Below, piece after piece: positions 12,905 to 18,721 of a stretch of DNA of 64,000 bases. A program made the position numbers and the translations under genes. The notes below the pieces were generated by a model that did no database searches, was not told where the DNA came from, and saw only the letters and a list, made by a program, of their open reading frames with translations. Source of the DNA: an uncultured Acetatifactor sp. (lineage in GTDB: Bacteria > Bacillota > Clostridia > Lachnospirales > Lachnospiraceae); contig CANQBS010000006.1 of assembly GCA_947589075.1 (NCBI GenBank), positions 1 through 64,000 on the forward strand, read 5' to 3'. The number at the start of each line of letters is the position of its first letter. The first letter of the stretch is position 1.

Positions 12905-13678
12905 TTACTTCATATCCCTCTTCAAAAAACAAAGGAATGCCGCTGTCAGCGCCGCTGTGCCGATACAGATACAGGGCACGAATATCATCCAGAATCCGCC
13001 TGTCAGGATGGTATCGTCCAAAACCGCCCGCCGCATCAGAACCTCCGCCGAAAAGGCGCCTCCGATCCTTCCGTAGCCGTTGCTGCTGTAATAAAAGAAC
13101 GTGAATCGGTCCTGATAAGCGGCATCCAGGAAGGTCACAGCCAGAGAAACCGCAAAGCCCACTCCCGTATTTTGGAACAGCACCATCAGGAAAATAAACA
13201 CACATAGGTAAGAAAGGGTAAGAATCACCATGCCGACATGGAAGCTCGCCGCCTTGGCCCAATAATTCTCCAGCGTAAACCCATGGGGATTGTATCCCCA
13301 TTTCCAGGTACGGACCAGACAGGCCAAAACAATGCTGAGCAGATAAGTAAGGATGGACATGACAAATATGCAGGTCACCTTTACGAGGAATACCCGGCTC
13401 CGCTTTACGCCCCGGCCCACCGTGCTCTGCATGGTTCCGAAATCAAACTCCTGCCCCATCAGACCTCCTGCCAGAACGGCATAGATGATCAGACAGTTTC
13501 CCACATAATGCAGATAAACCGTAAAAAGGGCGCCGTATCCTGACTGAAAAAACGTGGCGTCGTAATTATTCGGGGAAAAGGCCAGCATAACGGTCGTAAT
13601 GAGCGAGTACCAAAAGACGAATTTCACGGCTCTGGAATGGCGCATTATGAGCAGTTCATGATAAAAAAGATATCTCAA
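12905..13678 (-). CDS. ABC-2 type transporter permease
   Basis: Predicted 257-residue membrane protein with about six hydrophobic segments and the ABC-2 pattern of a large first loop (QEFDFGTMQSTVGRGVKRSR). The start codon is TTG, overlapping the TGA of the ATPase gene by four bases (TTGA). A GGGAGGG ribosome site sits in the ATPase tail. Together with the ATPase at 13675 it makes a two-component exporter of the kind used for bacteriocin immunity or drug export. The substrate is unknown. Confidence 0.78.
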   Translation of the reverse strand: MRYLFYHELLIMRHSRAVKFVFWYSLITTVMLAFSPNNYDATFFQSGYGALFTVYLHYVGNCLIIYAVLAGGLMGQEFDFGTMQSTVGRGVKRSRVFLVKVTCIFVMSILTYLLSIVLACLVRTWKWGYNPHGFTLENYWAKAASFHVGMVILTLSYLCVFIFLMVLFQNTGVGFAVSLAVTFLDAAYQDRFTFFYYSSNGYGRIGGAFSAEVLMRRAVLDDTILTGGFWMIFVPCICIGTAALTAAFLCFLKRDMK

Positions 13679-14442
13679 CGTCCTTCCCTCCCGGCAAAAT
13701 CCTTTATAAGCTTCGTGTAGTATTCTTCCAGCGTCAGATTCTTGTTTTCCTCCTTCAGTTCCTCCGCCGTCAGCTCCATTTCCAGCCTTCCCTTATAAAG
13801 GAAGCCATACCTGGTGGCAAAATCGGGGAAAACATGAAGATTCGCGCTGGTAAAAAATATGGTCAGCTTCCGCTTCTCCTGCAGCCTCAAAAGCAGCTCC
13901 CGCATCTGTGCGATCCCTTTGGGCGCAAGATTTTGATAAGGCTCGTCCAGGATCAGCAGTTTGGGATTTCCAAGAAGGGATATGGCGATCCCAAGCCGCT
14001 GCTTTGCGCCGCCGGAAAGAGTCCGCGCCTTTCTTTTGTCCTCCGGGTCCAGGCCCACCATCTCCAGCAGCCCCGTCAGATCCTCCTTCTCCATATCCCG
14101 GTCAACAGCCCTCAGGATTTTCTTATAGGCTCTGAGATTCTCCATGGGCGTCAGGTTTTGGTAAAGAGCGGGGATGCCGACCAGGGAACCGATCCTCACC
14201 CGCTTCTTCCCAAGGCGTTCTTCTGAATTTTTGCCGGAGTTTTTCCCAAAAAGGGTAAAATCTCCCTCATCCGGCGCCGCCAGCCCCAGAAGAAGCCGGA
14301 TCAATGTGGTCTTTCCGCTGCCCTGACCGCCGATCAGGCCGTAAATATCTCCTTCCTGAACCTTAAGTGAAATATGGTCCAACACACATTGCTTCCGATA
14401 TATTTTTGTAAGATCTGTGGTCTGCAATACATACTCCGGCAT
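13675..14442 (-). CDS. ABC transporter ATPase with altered D-loop and H-loop
   Basis: Predicted 255 residues from MPEYVLQTTDLTKIYRK at 14442, which follows AAGGA. Walker A GGQGSGKTT, signature LSGGAKQRLG and Walker B LLILDEP are intact. The D-loop, normally NGLDP, reads QNLAP, and the switch segment, normally SSH, reads FTSANLH, so the D-loop Asp and the H-loop His seem to be replaced by Ala. Those residues support ATP hydrolysis in the dimer. The protein may therefore hydrolyse slowly or serve a gating role. It is translationally coupled to the permease at 12905. Confidence 0.82.
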   Translation of the reverse strand: MPEYVLQTTDLTKIYRKQCVLDHISLKVQEGDIYGLIGGQGSGKTTLIRLLLGLAAPDEGDFTLFGKNSGKNSEERLGKKRVRIGSLVGIPALYQNLTPMENLRAYKKILRAVDRDMEKEDLTGLLEMVGLDPEDKRKARTLSGGAKQRLGIAISLLGNPKLLILDEPYQNLAPKGIAQMRELLLRLQEKRKLTIFFTSANLHVFPDFATRYGFLYKGRLEMELTAEELKEENKNLTLEEYYTKLIKDFAGREGR

Positions 14443-14673
14443 ACTTTGATTCCTTCTTAGTCTTTTGATTCCTTTTTGCAGCCTTGCCAGCCGCGCATGG
14501 ATCAGCTGCATGCTTCTATATGAAAAATTCTATACGTTATATGAATATTTACCAGCTTGTATCGCTTAATATTATATCACGAAATTTTGATGCAATCAAC
14601 GACGGCGCAATCATCTGTATGTCTTTAGTAGAAAACCTTTACAAAATATTTCCCCGCCGATCCCATTGTCCCA

Positions 14674-14703
14674 TTGACAGGGATCCCCTATTTATCCTAT
14701 AAT
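14674..14703 (+). promoter_or_regulatory. Strong promoter of the leader/HTH/ABC exporter operon
   Basis: TTGACA (14674-14679), 18-base spacer, TATAAT (14698-14703): both hexamers match the consensus exactly. The first start codon downstream is that of the leader ORF at 14796, and the HTH gene starts at 14939, so the message has a leader of over 200 bases. Confidence 0.85.
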
Positions 14704-14795
14704 ACCCGTATCAGATGCGGAAGCGTCTATGATAACCTTTTCAAGGCAGACAGTAATTGCGGCGGCGAAGCCGGCAGGAAAGGAGGACCTTGCAC

Positions 14796-14837
14796 ATGAG
14801 AAATGAGGTGTTTCAAATAACGAACCATGCAGAATGA
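14796..14837 (+). CDS. 13-residue leader peptide ORF
   Basis: A short ORF, MRNEVFQITNHAE, is preceded by AAAGGAGG with nine bases of spacing, an excellent ribosome site. Its last codons (14825-14834) form the left arm of a perfect hairpin with 14852-14861. Such an arrangement, a well-translated mini-ORF followed by mutually exclusive stems before a regulated gene, is the hallmark of ribosome-mediated attenuation. That mechanism is known for the BmrB leader that controls the BmrCD exporter in Bacillus subtilis. The function here is inferred from layout only; the peptide shows no similarity I can name. Confidence 0.6.
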   Translation: MRNEVFQITNHAE

Positions 14838-14928
14838 GCAGGCATATAGGGTTCTGCATGGATCATTCATTTTATATGCACTGCTGATTCTGCTCTTAAT
14901 GATGAAACTGTTTCGATTCATTCATTAA
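14825..14928 (+). promoter_or_regulatory. Competing hairpins of a probable attenuator
   Basis: Stem 1: CCATGCAGAA (14825-14834) pairs perfectly with TTCTGCATGG (14852-14861), loop 17 bases. Stem 2: 14829-14848 pairs with 14873-14893 in three blocks (7, 5 and 7 base pairs) broken by one G-G mismatch and one bulged A. Both stems use 14829-14834, so they exclude each other. A third hairpin pairs 14896-14906 with 14917-14928 and ends on the first bases of the AAGGAGG ribosome site (14927-14933) of the HTH gene. No long T tract follows, so control could be translational or transcriptional. Confidence 0.6.
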
Positions 14929-14938
14929 GGAGGACGGA

Positions 14939-15196
14939 ATGAAATATCAGAATGCGGCAGTCGTATTGCCCGAAGAAGTGCTTCGGAGCCTTCAGGATTA
15001 TTTTCAGGGAGGACTTCTTTATATTCCAAAAGCAGACGTGAAAACCGGATGGGGCTGCAAAAGTGGCGCAAAAGATTACTATGCCAGGCGCAACCGCCAG
15101 ATTCGGGACGCTTACGCGGAAAACATTTCCATAGAAGAGCTGGCCGGAAGATTCGGTCTGTCCGAATGCACGATCCGAAAAATTATATATCAATGA
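14939..15196 (+). CDS. CD3324-type helix-turn-helix protein
   Basis: Predicted 85 residues. The opening MKYQNAAVVLPEEVLRSLQD and YFQGGLLYIPK, and the C-terminal helix-turn-helix ISIEELAGRFGLSECTIRKI, match the small CD3324 family of Clostridia, related to Mor-type activators. AAGGAGG lies just upstream, at the edge of the third hairpin of the leader. It is the first full gene downstream of the attenuator and precedes two ABC half-exporters, so it is probably their local regulator. Its target and ligand are unknown. Confidence 0.75.
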   Translation: MKYQNAAVVLPEEVLRSLQDYFQGGLLYIPKADVKTGWGCKSGAKDYYARRNRQIRDAYAENISIEELAGRFGLSECTIRKIIYQ

Positions 15197-15311
15197 TAGA
15201 AACCCGCTGCGGCATCCTGGCCCGGCGGGTTTTCTATCTGAAAAAGAGACTTTATTTTAAAACAAACTCCCGCTTGCCCTTGCGCTGCGCATCTTTTATG
15301 ATAAATATGCC

Positions 15312-15424
15312 GCAGGATTCGGACTTACACGCTGCCTGGGCGGACCACCACAGGATTCGGACTTGCGCCGCCTGGGCGGCTCATCGCAGAATTCGGACTT
15401 GCGCGCCGCCTGGGCGGACCGCCG
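15312..15424. repeat. Tandem repeat of 36-39 bp, three copies
   Basis: Three consecutive units (15312-15350, 15351-15386, 15387-15424) share CAGGATTCGGACTTGCG and GCCGCCTGGGCGG, with small differences and length changes. They fill the spacer between the HTH gene and the first ABC exporter gene, ending 20 bases before its ribosome site. The frame is open across them, but the AGGGAGG at 15444-15450 marks the real start as 15457. Confidence 0.85.
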
Positions 15425-15456
15425 CGGGACACGAATTGTTTTCAGGGAGGACACGT

Positions 15457-17088
15457 ATGAAGATCCAACGCACAGGCCCCCTTTTCGGAGCCTCTGAACG
15501 TCAATTAAAATACACGGCCGTCGCCGTCTGGCTGTTCCAGTTCACAAATATTCCGATCAATCTGCTCACCGCCAGCTGGATGTCCGAGATCGTGAACGCC
15601 GCCACCGGGGGACGGACGGAACGAGTGCTTACCGCCGGGCTAAAGCTCGCCGTCCTGCTGATCGGCTTCAAGCTGTGCGAAAGCGCCTGCCAGGTCTGGC
15701 TGGAACGGAGGAAGTCCCAGACGCTCCATCGCTGCAAAATGGAATTGTACGGCCAGTTTCTCTCCAGCCCGCTGCCCGTGCTCTATTCCTCCGACAGCGG
15801 TCAGTCCAAGGAACGGCTGAACGACGATTTTAATGCAGTCACCGGCAAATTCGTCACGGATCTGCCGGGGCTTGGCTCCAGTCTCGCCGGCATCGCCGCC
15901 TACTTTATCTTTATTGCAAGGCTGAGCCTGCCTATGGCGGTGCTGCTGACCGTATTCGCCCTTCTGCAGATCATCCCGCCGCTCATTGTAAAGAGATTCC
16001 TCGAACAGAACTATACGGACATGAGGAAGATCGAGGCCGTCTGCACCAATTTTATCATAGAAGCCCATCACGGCTTCCCTGTGCTGAAGCTGTATAAGCT
16101 GAAAAACTGGTACACGGAAAAGCTGGCGCGCATCCACAAAGAAAATATACGCATCACCAACCGGTCGATCCTGGCCGGGCAGACGGAAGATTATCTCGAT
16201 AATTTCCTGTCCGTCCTGCTGAAATACGGCACTTACGCCATGGCCGGTCTGTTGGCGCTGTACGGCGCTGTTACGCTCGATACCGGTGTAAAGGTCATCG
16301 CCCTGTCGGGCAGTTTCTTCGCCGCAGTGAACACGGCGTTTTCTTCGATCACACGCTTCGCTGTCGTCCGTCAGGCCAGGAATCGTCTGGCGGAATGGTA
16401 CGGTGCGTCGGGAAAAGAGGATTCCGTAAAAGGGCTCCCGACAGGATCAGTCCGAACCTCACAGGAGCCGCAGACCTGGGCAGTCTCCCTCTCCGGAGTC
16501 ACCGTCTCCTTTGACGGCAGGGAAATCTTCCGCGATATGACAGTCTCTTTCCCTGCCAGCGGGATCTGCCTCATCAAAGGCGATAACGGCGCCGGAAAAT
16601 CGACGCTTTTCAAATTGATCGCCGGACTGATCCCGGCTGAGCAGATCCCTGCCGGACAGATTCCAACCGGACAGGCAGCGGGGCAGGATTTTCCCCACAG
16701 GGTCTTCTATCTGCCCCAGGAAGACGCCGAATTTGAGTTCACGCCCCAGGATTTCTACAGCATGATAGCGGATCTGGACCTGTCCTGTGTCCTGACCATC
16801 GCAGAAGATTTTGAATTGAACCAGACCCAGCTTTGCGAAACGAAGATCCGCGAGCTGTCCGGTGGAGAGCGCAAAAAGGTCTTTCTGGCACTTGCCCTGG
16901 CTCTCGACCCTTCGCTGCTGCTCTTAGACGAGCCCACCAATTCTCTGGACGAACACAGTAAGACCGTGCTGGTCCGGGCGCTTCAAAAACGCGTCGGACC
17001 GACGCTTATCATTTCCCATGACCCTGTATTTGACGCCGTAAGCAACCATACTTATCGAATGGAGAAAGGAGAGATACGCCTTGCATAG
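15457..17088 (+). CDS. ABC exporter half-transporter, first subunit
   Basis: Predicted 543 residues: an N-terminal membrane domain with about six hydrophobic segments (to about residue 310) and a C-terminal nucleotide-binding domain. Walker A is GDNGAGKSTLF, Q-loop LPQEDAE, signature LSGGERKKV, Walker B LLLLDEPTNSLDE, and the switch His is in ISHDP. The start ATG at 15457 follows AGGGAGG by six bases; an upstream open frame through the repeat array is ignored. Next to the Walker A region a short repeat AEQIPAGQIPTGQAAGQ expands a loop. It overlaps the next half-transporter by 8 bases, so the two probably form a heterodimer. The substrate is unknown; drug or peptide export is typical. Confidence 0.85.
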   Translation: MKIQRTGPLFGASERQLKYTAVAVWLFQFTNIPINLLTASWMSEIVNAATGGRTERVLTAGLKLAVLLIGFKLCESACQVWLERRKSQTLHRCKMELYGQFLSSPLPVLYSSDSGQSKERLNDDFNAVTGKFVTDLPGLGSSLAGIAAYFIFIARLSLPMAVLLTVFALLQIIPPLIVKRFLEQNYTDMRKIEAVCTNFIIEAHHGFPVLKLYKLKNWYTEKLARIHKENIRITNRSILAGQTEDYLDNFLSVLLKYGTYAMAGLLALYGAVTLDTGVKVIALSGSFFAAVNTAFSSITRFAVVRQARNRLAEWYGASGKEDSVKGLPTGSVRTSQEPQTWAVSLSGVTVSFDGREIFRDMTVSFPASGICLIKGDNGAGKSTLFKLIAGLIPAEQIPAGQIPTGQAAGQDFPHRVFYLPQEDAEFEFTPQDFYSMIADLDLSCVLTIAEDFELNQTQLCETKIRELSGGERKKVFLALALALDPSLLLLDEPTNSLDEHSKTVLVRALQKRVGPTLIISHDPVFDAVSNHTYRMEKGEIRLA

Positions 17089-18721
17089 ACCGGACAAAAC
17101 TGAAAAACAGATTCTGAGAGACTGCCGCAGGTTCGTGTTTCCCGCTTTGATCTTTTATACGTCGGGCGCTCTGATCAGCTCTCTCATCACCATATATACG
17201 GCAGGCATTCTCGGCAGCTTCGCCGACAGGGTCTTTCGCTTGGATCTGTCCGGCGGCCTGGCAGATTTCCGGACGCTGCTCGTCTGCCTGCTGGCAAATA
17301 TATTCATCGAACCGCTGCTCTCCTATGTCTGCGGCGATATTACGATGAATGTCTGTTCCCTGCGCCACGACCGGCAGATCCTGCGGCGTTTCCTGGAGAA
17401 AACCTACGCGTCCGCCATGAGCATCGACGCGGGAGAAGCCAGCATCAGGATTGAGGACGACCCGATTGAACTGCGCTGCGACTGGGAAAAGATTCTCGGC
17501 GGGATCATTCAGACAACCGTTACGCTGGCCTATCTGCTTTACAATTCCCTGCAGATCAGCGCCCTCTTTACGGCGATTGTCCTGGCCGTTTCCGCCCTCA
17601 AGCTCACGGTCCCTGTGCTGGTCCAAAAAACCCAGGCAAGGTTCAGGCTGCTGGAAAAAGAATATCGCACTGCCCTCCGCTCTTATGAAACAGAAATCAC
17701 CGTCCAGCCGCACACCATAATCCTATACGGTCTGAAAAACGCCATGCTCGCACGTCTGGACCACCTTTATCAGACCTATTATGAAAATGTAGTGCGCAAA
17801 AGCAGCCGCTACAATACCGTTGCGGACAATATTCTTTCCTGGCTTAATACCTTTTGCATCCTTCTGATCCTTTTTGCCGGCGCTCTGATGGTCAGCCGCG
17901 GCAGCATCACAGCCGGAAATGTAGCCGCGATGGTGGGATATTTTGCCGTATATAACCAGTTAATGGAAATGTCCGGAAACGTCATCCGCACAATTCCCTT
18001 ATTCCACAACGACGTCCGTCGGGTGAAGCCTCTTTACGAAGGAATGGAGGACCTGTCCGGAGAAACAGTACCGGCGGAAACATTCATCCCAAAAGCCAGC
18101 GTCCCGGTCCCGTCACAGGATCTGCTGCGGATCGACAGCCTTTCGTTTCGATACGACGGTGAGCCAGTCCTGAACGGCCTGTCATTTTCCGTGAAGAAAG
18201 GGGAAAAAATAGCCGTTACCGGTCCGAACGGCAGCGGAAAATCGACTCTGCTCCGAATCCTCTGCGGTCTGTACCCCGACTACGGCGGCAGCATCCGAAT
18301 CACCGGCAAAGAGCTGAAAGAGTTAAATCCCGACGCCTGGCGCGACTGCTTCGCCCTGGTTCAGCAGGATCCCTGGCTTTTCGAGGGCGACGTGGCAGAA
18401 AACGTACAAATGGGCCGCCTCTCGGCAAGCCGGGAAGAAGTTTACGCAATTATGGACCGTCTTGGCATCCGCCATCTGGCGGAACGGAAATTATCATTCC
18501 AGGATCATTCCCTGTCCGGCGGGGAAAAGCAGCGCATCTCCATCGCACGAGCCCTGCTGAAGGGCTGCGGCCTGCTGCTCTTCGATGAGCCGAGCAATAA
18601 CCTGGATGCCGCTACCTCCGCGTGGATCGGGCGCTTCATTGAGACCTGTCCGGAAACCATGATCTTCATCTCCCACGACGAAGCGCTGATCGCGAAAGCC
18701 GACCGTGTCGTATCCCTATGA
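17081..18721 (+). CDS. ABC exporter half-transporter, second subunit
   Basis: Predicted 546 residues from a TTG start supported by AAGGAGA eight bases upstream, overlapping the first subunit. Membrane domain up to about residue 300, then a nucleotide-binding domain: Walker A GPNGSGKSTLL, Q-loop VQQDPWLFEG, signature LSGGEKQRISIARA, Walker B LLLFDEPSNNLDA, switch His in ISHDEA. All catalytic elements are intact here. It is the last gene of the leader/HTH/exporter operon; the next gene is on the other strand. Confidence 0.86.
   Translation: MHRPDKTEKQILRDCRRFVFPALIFYTSGALISSLITIYTAGILGSFADRVFRLDLSGGLADFRTLLVCLLANIFIEPLLSYVCGDITMNVCSLRHDRQILRRFLEKTYASAMSIDAGEASIRIEDDPIELRCDWEKILGGIIQTTVTLAYLLYNSLQISALFTAIVLAVSALKLTVPVLVQKTQARFRLLEKEYRTALRSYETEITVQPHTIILYGLKNAMLARLDHLYQTYYENVVRKSSRYNTVADNILSWLNTFCILLILFAGALMVSRGSITAGNVAAMVGYFAVYNQLMEMSGNVIRTIPLFHNDVRRVKPLYEGMEDLSGETVPAETFIPKASVPVPSQDLLRIDSLSFRYDGEPVLNGLSFSVKKGEKIAVTGPNGSGKSTLLRILCGLYPDYGGSIRITGKELKELNPDAWRDCFALVQQDPWLFEGDVAENVQMGRLSASREEVYAIMDRLGIRHLAERKLSFQDHSLSGGEKQRISIARALLKGCGLLLFDEPSNNLDAATSAWIGRFIETCPETMIFISHDEALIAKADRVVSL

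Follow-up and report, generated by a model that had tools for sequence, protein, structure and literature searches.

Organization of the Locus

The window analyzed here is a stretch of 64,000 nucleotides from an uncultured Acetatifactor sp. (contig CANQBS010000006.1). Features are on the + strand unless stated otherwise. The leader promoter PL (14674–14703) consists of TTGACA (14674–14679), an 18-nt spacer and TATAAT (14698–14703), and matches the consensus at 12 of 12 positions. Downstream, the Shine-Dalgarno (SD) sequence AAGGAGG (14780–14786) precedes a mini-ORF of 13 codons (14796–14837). It encodes MRNEVFQITNHAE and ends with His-Ala-Glu-stop (HAE-stop).

The end of the mini-ORF provides segment 1 of the leader RNA. 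Its sequence CCATGCAGAA (14825–14834) is the 5' strand of stem I and pairs at 10 of 10 positions with segment 2 (14852–14861). Segment 1 also provides the 5' strand of stem II (14829–14848), which pairs with segment 3 (14873–14893) in 19 pairs with one bulge and one mismatch. Because segment 1 is common to both, stems I and II are mutually exclusive. The core of stem III is formed by CTTAATGA (14895–14902) and TCATTAAG (14922–14929), against the SD AAGGAGG (14927–14933) in front of the ATG at 14939. In extended stem III, the 5' strand (14884–14902) joins nucleotides 14884–14893, common to stem II, to the core, and the 3' strand, segment 4 (14922–14937), includes the SD. Folds of single sequences revealed this extension, and its pairs were afterwards counted in the relatives. 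It is seen in the minimum-energy folds of the 3' part of the relatives' leaders, while the window folds in a variant register; its pairing of 14884–14893 with 14930–14937 was read by hand. The first-pass annotation of this DNA had named the promoter, the 13-codon ORF, the 10-bp stem, the exclusive 19-bp stem and the ribosome-site hairpin, and reading of the sequence finds all of them where it had placed them.

The 251-nt leader folds better than 200 of 200 dinucleotide shuffles (z = −2.93), and the element has a single match in its own genome. An automatic scan of 14600–15500 finds no terminator between PL and the following gene. Neither the window leader nor those of ten relatives match any Rfam 15 family, and at E up to 1 the window region yields two chance-level matches only, both elsewhere. 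Apart from its leader, one relative contains a match to pemK RNA (RF02913) above the gathering score (L077:6062–6163). A divergent ABC-2 type transporter pair (12905–14511, minus strand) starts near the leader promoter in the window; its ATPase is nearest to lantibiotic-protection ABC proteins (TIGR03740, below the cut-off).

The leader is followed by a gene for an 85-aa regulator of the CD3324 family (14939–15196). The protein matches NF040785 with E = 6.8e-26 and 90.2 bits (curated cut-off 65), and scores 23.5 bits against Mor (PF08765), just under the cut-off of 24.9. The gene has one match in its own genome. In the predicted structure, the C-terminal helical part alone is confident (mean pLDDT 72). 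A search in plasmids finds CD3324 in five Bacillota records, and a search in phages finds no match. In the literature searched, no account of CD3324 function was found; the papers there that contain the term concern nematode assays.

Two ABC exporter genes follow. Subunit 1 (15457–17088, 543 aa) matches PF00005 above and PF00664 just below the cut-off, in a profile scan made on a longer frame from 15334. Subunit 2 (17081–18721, 546 aa) matches both PF00664 and PF00005 above the cut-off. In the nearest relatives, L031 and L032, both ABC genes (L031:944–4805 and L032:5690–9563) align to those of the window in two blocks separated by an interruption, and thus apparently contain insertions.

Conservation of the Mini-ORF and the Helices

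Relatives of CD3324 were searched in 101 genomes of the genus. Matches are present in 58, and the best 30 loci were taken, together with five loci from named genomes (MAGs called Lachnospiraceae, Acetatifactor and Eisenbergiella). The HAE-stop pattern is found upstream of CD3324 in 20 of these 35 loci, the window counted. Loci without it mostly have more distant CD3324 proteins; L011, L013 and L014 carry a leader that is related yet altered. In the leaders with HAE-stop, here called class A, the codons for His, Ala and Glu and the stop codon show synonymous variation (CAY GCR GAR TAA/TAG/TGA). In three loci with ABC-type genes (L101, L102 and L103), the leader stop is shifted, and HAE is followed by four codons (HAEIAGI, HAEIAGI and HAETAGI, respectively).

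In-frame pN/pS of the mini-ORF is 0.51 for seven leaders of a group with GNAT genes, versus 0.83 and 0.83 in the two other frames, and 0.81 for seven of a group with SpoU genes, versus 1.05 and 1.12. The peptide of the window clade is weakly constrained (0.76 for three leaders, a value that stands without a control).

Base pairing was counted in two alignments. Alignment A1 contains 18 of the 20 leaders (17 distinct; L011 and L016 are left out, and L012 was removed earlier), and alignment A4 contains 16 of 19 leaders from other clades (L080, L084 and L092 are left out). In A1, 94.1% of the cells are paired in stem I, 97.8% in stem II and 79.6% in the stem III core, with 3, 4 and 3 doubly changed pairs, respectively. 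In A4, stem I is paired in 97.7% of the cells with 3 pairs changed on both sides, and stem II in 94.4% with 6 such pairs; extended stem III, core included, is paired in 90.2% in the 16 relatives. In L076, L077 and L082, both bases differ in each of three stem II pairs (26:57, 27:56 and 29:54 in A4).

No shuffle out of 500 attains the covariation score of stems I and II in any of the four counts, and slid controls give lower covariation in all four; these shuffle statistics ignore the relatedness of the leaders. Nor does any of the 500 shuffles in A1 equal the paired cells or the cells with double changes. The number of doubly changed pairs itself is unexceptional in A1 (reached by 31/500 and 134/500 shuffles); in A4 it is reached by 39/500 and 0/500. 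Further pair types are reached by 185/500 and 256/500 shuffles in A1, and by 136/500 and 14/500 in A4. RNAalifold on the 3' half of the leader alone finds nothing. The first-pass annotation had proposed a conserved mini-ORF and compensatory stem changes among relatives as its check, and both are found there.

With strict filters and the own genome included each time, a covariance model finds the element in the genus in 24 of 138 genomes, in a family sample in 11 of 397 and in a class sample in 4 of 391. Three of these matches look false by eye (L046, L048 and L049), one in the family sample and two in the class sample. The 151-nt leader of L007 has no match in plasmids and one weak match in phages (E = 0.5).

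Genes behind CD3324 and Two Further Leader Classes

In 41 loci, the genes behind CD3324 were grouped by BLAST clustering, and one member of each group was scanned by profile. These loci include L033 and L100, apparently one locus, and the near-identical pairs L098/L099 and L107/L109. Paired ABC exporters are seen in the window, L031–L033, L094, L101–L103, L107, L109 and others. The remaining cargo comprises a GNAT group (PF00583, E = 1.8e-9), a SpoU group (PF00588, E = 2.2e-25) and two MATE loci (TIGR00797 above the cut-off); some loci have nothing recognizable. Among NCBIfam models, the SpoU member is nearest to RlmB and TrmL, with NshR/TsnR at E = 6.9e-7, all below the cut-offs. Dihydrofolate reductase genes in L104 and L106 were rejected as cargo; the operator-like box described below is missing at the expected place, and they are probably housekeeping genes.

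A search of 329 genomes of the family with a hairpin pattern finds matches in 111, while a reversed control pattern matches 22 (table count); many single matches are thus due to chance. From the matches listed, 32 regions were picked by eye, of which L168 and L170 have no such leader. Two recurrent further leader types, class B and class C, were chosen by eye.

Class B is represented by 20 loci. The peptide contains LHAK in 19 of them (for example, MCINEKRKNDVFLHAKPVDCDICME) and in most follows the pattern MC.N.K..N...LHAK. A CD3324-like start follows the leader in all 20 loci, and in 13 a frame is seen by eye that begins like a Vat-type acetyltransferase. The acetyltransferase of L150 is nearest to the Vat streptogramin A family (E = 1.3e-71), with 240 bits under a cut-off of 300.

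Class C peptides end with APC(R/K) followed by the stop or by one or two more residues (for example, MKLCIVSAPCKV). The residues before APC vary, and LCI is seen in about half. These leaders are located directly before MFS-like genes, except in L169, where another gene follows; L161 has no clear start codon. The one MFS protein scanned is nearest to TIGR00900 and Mef(A) (E = 3.2e-37, below the cut-off). Thirteen class C loci were found via the stem I pattern and the motif AGGAGCAAAG, and the pairings 1:2, 1:3 and 3:4 can be read directly in them. Stem I has 10 of 10 pairs in 12 of the 13 loci, and stem II has 14 of 14 in nine. The sequence CUUUGC is common to stem II and to the helix with GGAGCAAAG, which contains the SD. 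Class C is also present in three other families (L173, L177 and L182).

By family assignment, the cargo is predicted to consist of resistance-type genes. The proposed link to resistance against ribosome-targeting drugs gains support from the Vat-like, Mef-like, SpoU and GNAT neighbors of the relatives. ABC exporters, the context assumed originally, turn out to be one of several, as relatives also have GNAT, SpoU methyltransferase, MATE, Vat-like and Mef-like genes.

Predicted Stall Position and Direction of the Switch

Simple accessibility of the SD in 33 leaders shows no effect (0.35 for free RNA versus 0.35 with a ribosome at the stop). This null result led to a scan of opening energy, so that the stall position was found after a first negative. 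In the scan, a ribosome footprint is masked at each codon and the energy needed to open the CD3324 ribosome site is computed. The scan covers 29 leaders and the stem probabilities 28; the near-duplicates L032, L035, L098, L100 and L109, also L106, and leaders without a clear start are left out of these sets.

The mean opening energy is lowest, 6.8 kcal/mol, with the P-site five codons before His, compared with 9.0 for free RNA and 9.5 with a ribosome at the stop. In 23 of the 29 leaders, the value is more than 0.5 kcal/mol lower at −5 codons than at the stop; the other 6 show no effect. Mean probabilities of stems I and II are 0.67 and 0.30 in free RNA, 0.00 and 0.94 at −5 codons, and 0 and 0 at the stop. 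In single-sequence folds, segment 3 pairs with bases around the SD when segment 1 is unavailable, so stem II takes segment 3 away from a sequestering helix. The folding scans of the relatives thus place the predicted useful stall some five codons upstream of HAE. They disfavor a stall at the stop, where a ribosome would mask both stems.

The classes were compared between free RNA and RNA with the ribosome front edge 3 nt before stem II. Opening energy changes from 9.8 to 7.0 kcal/mol in 21 class A leaders (7.2 in the comparison with masked stem II), from 9.8 to 8.3 (at −3; 13.3 at +12) in 17 class B leaders, and from 7.8 to 4.1 in nine class C leaders. The class B energies cover 17 of 20 loci (without L142, L153 and L159), and those of class C cover 9 of 10 (without L169, where another gene follows). 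The gain is lost when the 5' strand of stem II is masked too (10.6, 11.4 and 9.9 kcal/mol for A, B and C). The stalled value is more than 0.5 kcal/mol below this in 17/21, 14/17 and 9/9 leaders, respectively. In each of the nine class C leaders scanned, the energy is lowest when 3 or 0 nt separate the front edge from stem II. The class B minima scatter, and 9 of 17 fall at −3 or 0.

The signal of the window leader is weak: 9.3 kcal/mol free, 7.2 stalled and 7.5 with the 5' strand of stem II masked. The seven leaders of its clade give 7.7, 6.3 and 7.0, respectively, and the stalled value is more than 0.5 below the masked one in three. Stem II is dominant in the free RNA of the window (P = 0.85), as in the six other leaders of the clade and in L077 and L082. 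Either stem I works kinetically in this clade, which is conceivable because stem I is transcribed first, or the clade is leaky. The window is the weaker case, for which the claim of a switch would rest more on the homology of the parts than on its own energetics.

A Second Promoter and an Operator-like Box

Directly behind CD3324, a terminator-like inverted repeat is seen by eye (15197–15238). The automatic scan detects only a small inner hairpin there (15219–15231), at about chance expectation. By eye, similar hairpins are present behind CD3324 in many of 38 regions, and in many loci such a terminator-type hairpin is followed by a promoter, often without a good −35 element. In the window, a second promoter, PR (TTGCCC-17-TATGAT, 15274–15302), matches 9 of 12 positions; the scan that contains it finds 2 promoter-like sites versus 1.1 expected. 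A candidate operator-like box, TTTATTTTAAAACAAACTCCCGCTTG (15251–15276), was recognized by eye just upstream of the PR −35. It is the only match in the genome at up to 3 mismatches, and the control gives 0. Near-copies are seen by eye before the exporter in L031 and L032, and before the leader in L075 and L096. The interval from PR to the first ABC gene, presumably the 5' leader of the exporter, contains a 38-bp tandem repeat of 3.2 copies (15310–15429).

A motif sampler run on 31 regions behind CD3324 yields a shared box, T(G/A)ATTATARYYRTTYT....ACTTG, with a score of 527 versus 339–352 in six letter shuffles. This control was lenient, with single letters shuffled and 12 restarts for the shuffles versus 40 for the real set. 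A repeat on 26 thinned regions with equal restarts gives 453 versus 306–327 in ten dinucleotide shuffles, and 18 of the 26 sites carry the box. A TATA-core count of 0/26 in this repeat is an artefact, the motif being shifted by one base.

Whole loci were scanned with a matrix that excluded the tested locus but kept its relatives. The best match falls 290–460 nt downstream of the CD3324 start in 20 of the 41 loci; in three further loci it falls in the leader promoter. In the SpoU group, a box in the leader promoter is among the three best matches in 8 of 8 loci (L088 counted in the group by its leader only). The motif search finds no shared box in the remaining 18 loci, which include the window and its clade. 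Comparison across loci shows conservation of the mini-ORF, the helices and, in other clades, the operator-like box.

Just upstream of the −35 is the usual position for an activator site. From this position we infer that CD3324 may bind the boxes and activate transcription; the weak similarity to Mor is the other ground for suggesting an activator. A stall would then act on CD3324 translation, and CD3324 on transcription of the resistance-type gene. Control of the exporter is probably indirect, since between CD3324 and the exporter there are a terminator-like repeat and a further promoter that has an operator-like box. The first-pass annotation had let the leader control the whole exporter operon; its leader–CD3324 part is supported, and simple co-regulation of the exporter does not, with the repeat and PR lying between.

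Proposed Mechanism and Alternatives

We consider it probable, though well short of assured, that the locus encodes a translational attenuator that senses events on the mini-ORF and is relayed by CD3324 to the exporter. Segment 1, the end of the mini-ORF, would pair with segment 2 (stem I) or segment 3 (stem II), and segment 3 could alternatively extend the hairpin over the ribosome site with segment 4 (extended stem III). The OFF state would be stem I (1:2) with extended stem III (3:4); it would also arise when a ribosome on the HAE stop codon masks segment 1. If a translating ribosome is slowed about five codons before HAE, its front edge would block the base of stem I and leave the rest of segment 1 free. 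Stem II (1:3) would then form, remove segment 3 and free the CD3324 ribosome site. CD3324 would activate the promoter behind its gene, and with it the exporter. The inducer might be a ribosome-targeting drug and the exporter its remedy.

The ribosome might instead arrest at the HAE stop codon, as in termination-arrest leaders, and free the CD3324 site from there. HAE-stop is strikingly constant in class A (20/35 loci) despite synonymous and stop-codon variation, and a ribosome standing there would sit on the 5' strand of stem II. For the window, moreover, opening costs no more with the ribosome at the stop (7.6 kcal/mol) than at upstream positions. In the 29 leaders, however, a ribosome at the stop leaves the site closed (9.5 versus 6.8 kcal/mol at −5). 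HAE also appears inessential to the chassis, as classes B and C have similar RNA with other endings, and this reading is judged unlikely. Sensing of a penultimate alanine, known for chloramphenicol and linezolid, was dropped for HAE together with it. It is quite unlikely, too, that the sensing is independent of drugs, such that any slow-down on the mini-ORF (starvation, low initiation) flips the switch and the peptide sequence is irrelevant. The peptide body does differ from class to class, constraint on it is weak in the window clade, and in class C the residues before APC vary. Against this, recurrent residues are found in class B and in class A groups, in the latter just before the predicted stall (YQNGVK-like and GFSH-like), in-frame pN/pS is lower than in the other frames, and the neighbors are resistance-type genes.

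Another possibility, less improbable but still doubtful, concerns the relay: CD3324 may be a repressor or only a self-regulator, with the exporter expressed from PR independently of the leader. The box in the leader promoters of the SpoU group would fit this, and the window PR could pass as a promoter by itself. The activator-like position of the box and the frequent lack of a good −35 in PR regions argue in the other direction. It is hardly credible that the hairpins merely belong to a gene for a small membrane protein of 33 codons (14827–14928) and have no regulatory role. Read by hand, this frame is open and hydrophobic in the window, but it has no start codon in leaders with CAC for His (4 of 18 in A1), and the conserved base pairs speak against it.

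Comparison with Known Systems

The attenuator with a CD3324 relay resembles known leader-peptide systems in part, and by its predicted mechanism it belongs with them. In erm (ErmC-type) attenuators, a bound drug stalls the ribosome on a mini-ORF, and a helix exchange frees the ribosome site of the next gene. A short conserved ORF with its own ribosome site is likewise found here upstream of the putatively regulated gene, and mutually exclusive, covarying helices, one of which hides the ribosome site of that gene, would permit a similar exchange. Unlike in erm attenuators, the ON helix is 1:3 and not 2:3, the ribosome is predicted to block the base of stem I with the front edge, and in classes A and B the leader precedes a regulator gene rather than a resistance gene. 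WhiB7 of actinobacteria is a regulator controlled by a uORF through transcriptional attenuation; it responds to ribosome inhibition and acts on diverse resistance genes. The proposed relay would be similar in having a putative uORF-controlled regulator before resistance-type genes. The regulators are unrelated, and the relay here looks local to one operon, with one box in the genome.

In Bacillus subtilis (PMC4191407), BmrB is a 53-aa ORF that acts with an intrinsic terminator on transcription, has no intervening regulator gene, and forms three alternative structures (anti-anti, anti and OFF), with the ribosome as sensor and the ABC exporter BmrCD downstream. The leader peptide, the alternative structures and the downstream ABC exporter have counterparts here. 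Differences are that the scan finds no intrinsic terminator in this leader and that the CD3324 gene lies in between. Since the scan finds no leader terminator, the output is most likely CD3324 translation rather than transcription as for BmrB. The BmrB-like logic suggested by the first-pass annotation holds for the leader peptide, the exclusive stems and the sequestered ribosome site, but most likely not for the transcriptional output.

The literature searched, which includes passages of PMC4191407, PMC13410324 and PMC10219788 but few subscription journals, contains no account of this leader or its peptides. Among the matches listed for six peptide strings, all are unrelated by title. The 1:3 topology, a regulator gene as output and exchangeable peptides distinguish the system from known attenuators.

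For a broader generalization, belief and doubt are evenly balanced. The 1:2/3:4 versus 1:3 arrangement could be a modular ribosome-sensing chassis, spread across Lachnospiraceae and other Clostridia families, in which exchangeable arrest peptides (AHAE, HAKPV and APCRV) confer different drug specificities. It would drive resistance genes directly, as with the Mef-like pumps, or via CD3324, which would be a clostridial counterpart of WhiB7. If the proposed attenuator and relay hold, one RNA switch would accept different sensor peptides, an uncharacterized regulator family of gut Clostridia would gain a function, and the GNAT, SpoU and ABC genes behind the switch would be likely inducible resistance genes. 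The leader peptides would be natural sensors of ribosome inhibitors and could reveal the compounds that these bacteria meet.

A reduced variant is seen by eye in L178 and L179 (around base 1500, minus strand), before an apparent MFS gene. Its peptide ends with YAPCR-stop, and a single hairpin holds GGAG in its 3' strand before the start codon. This is perhaps a simpler form of the switch.
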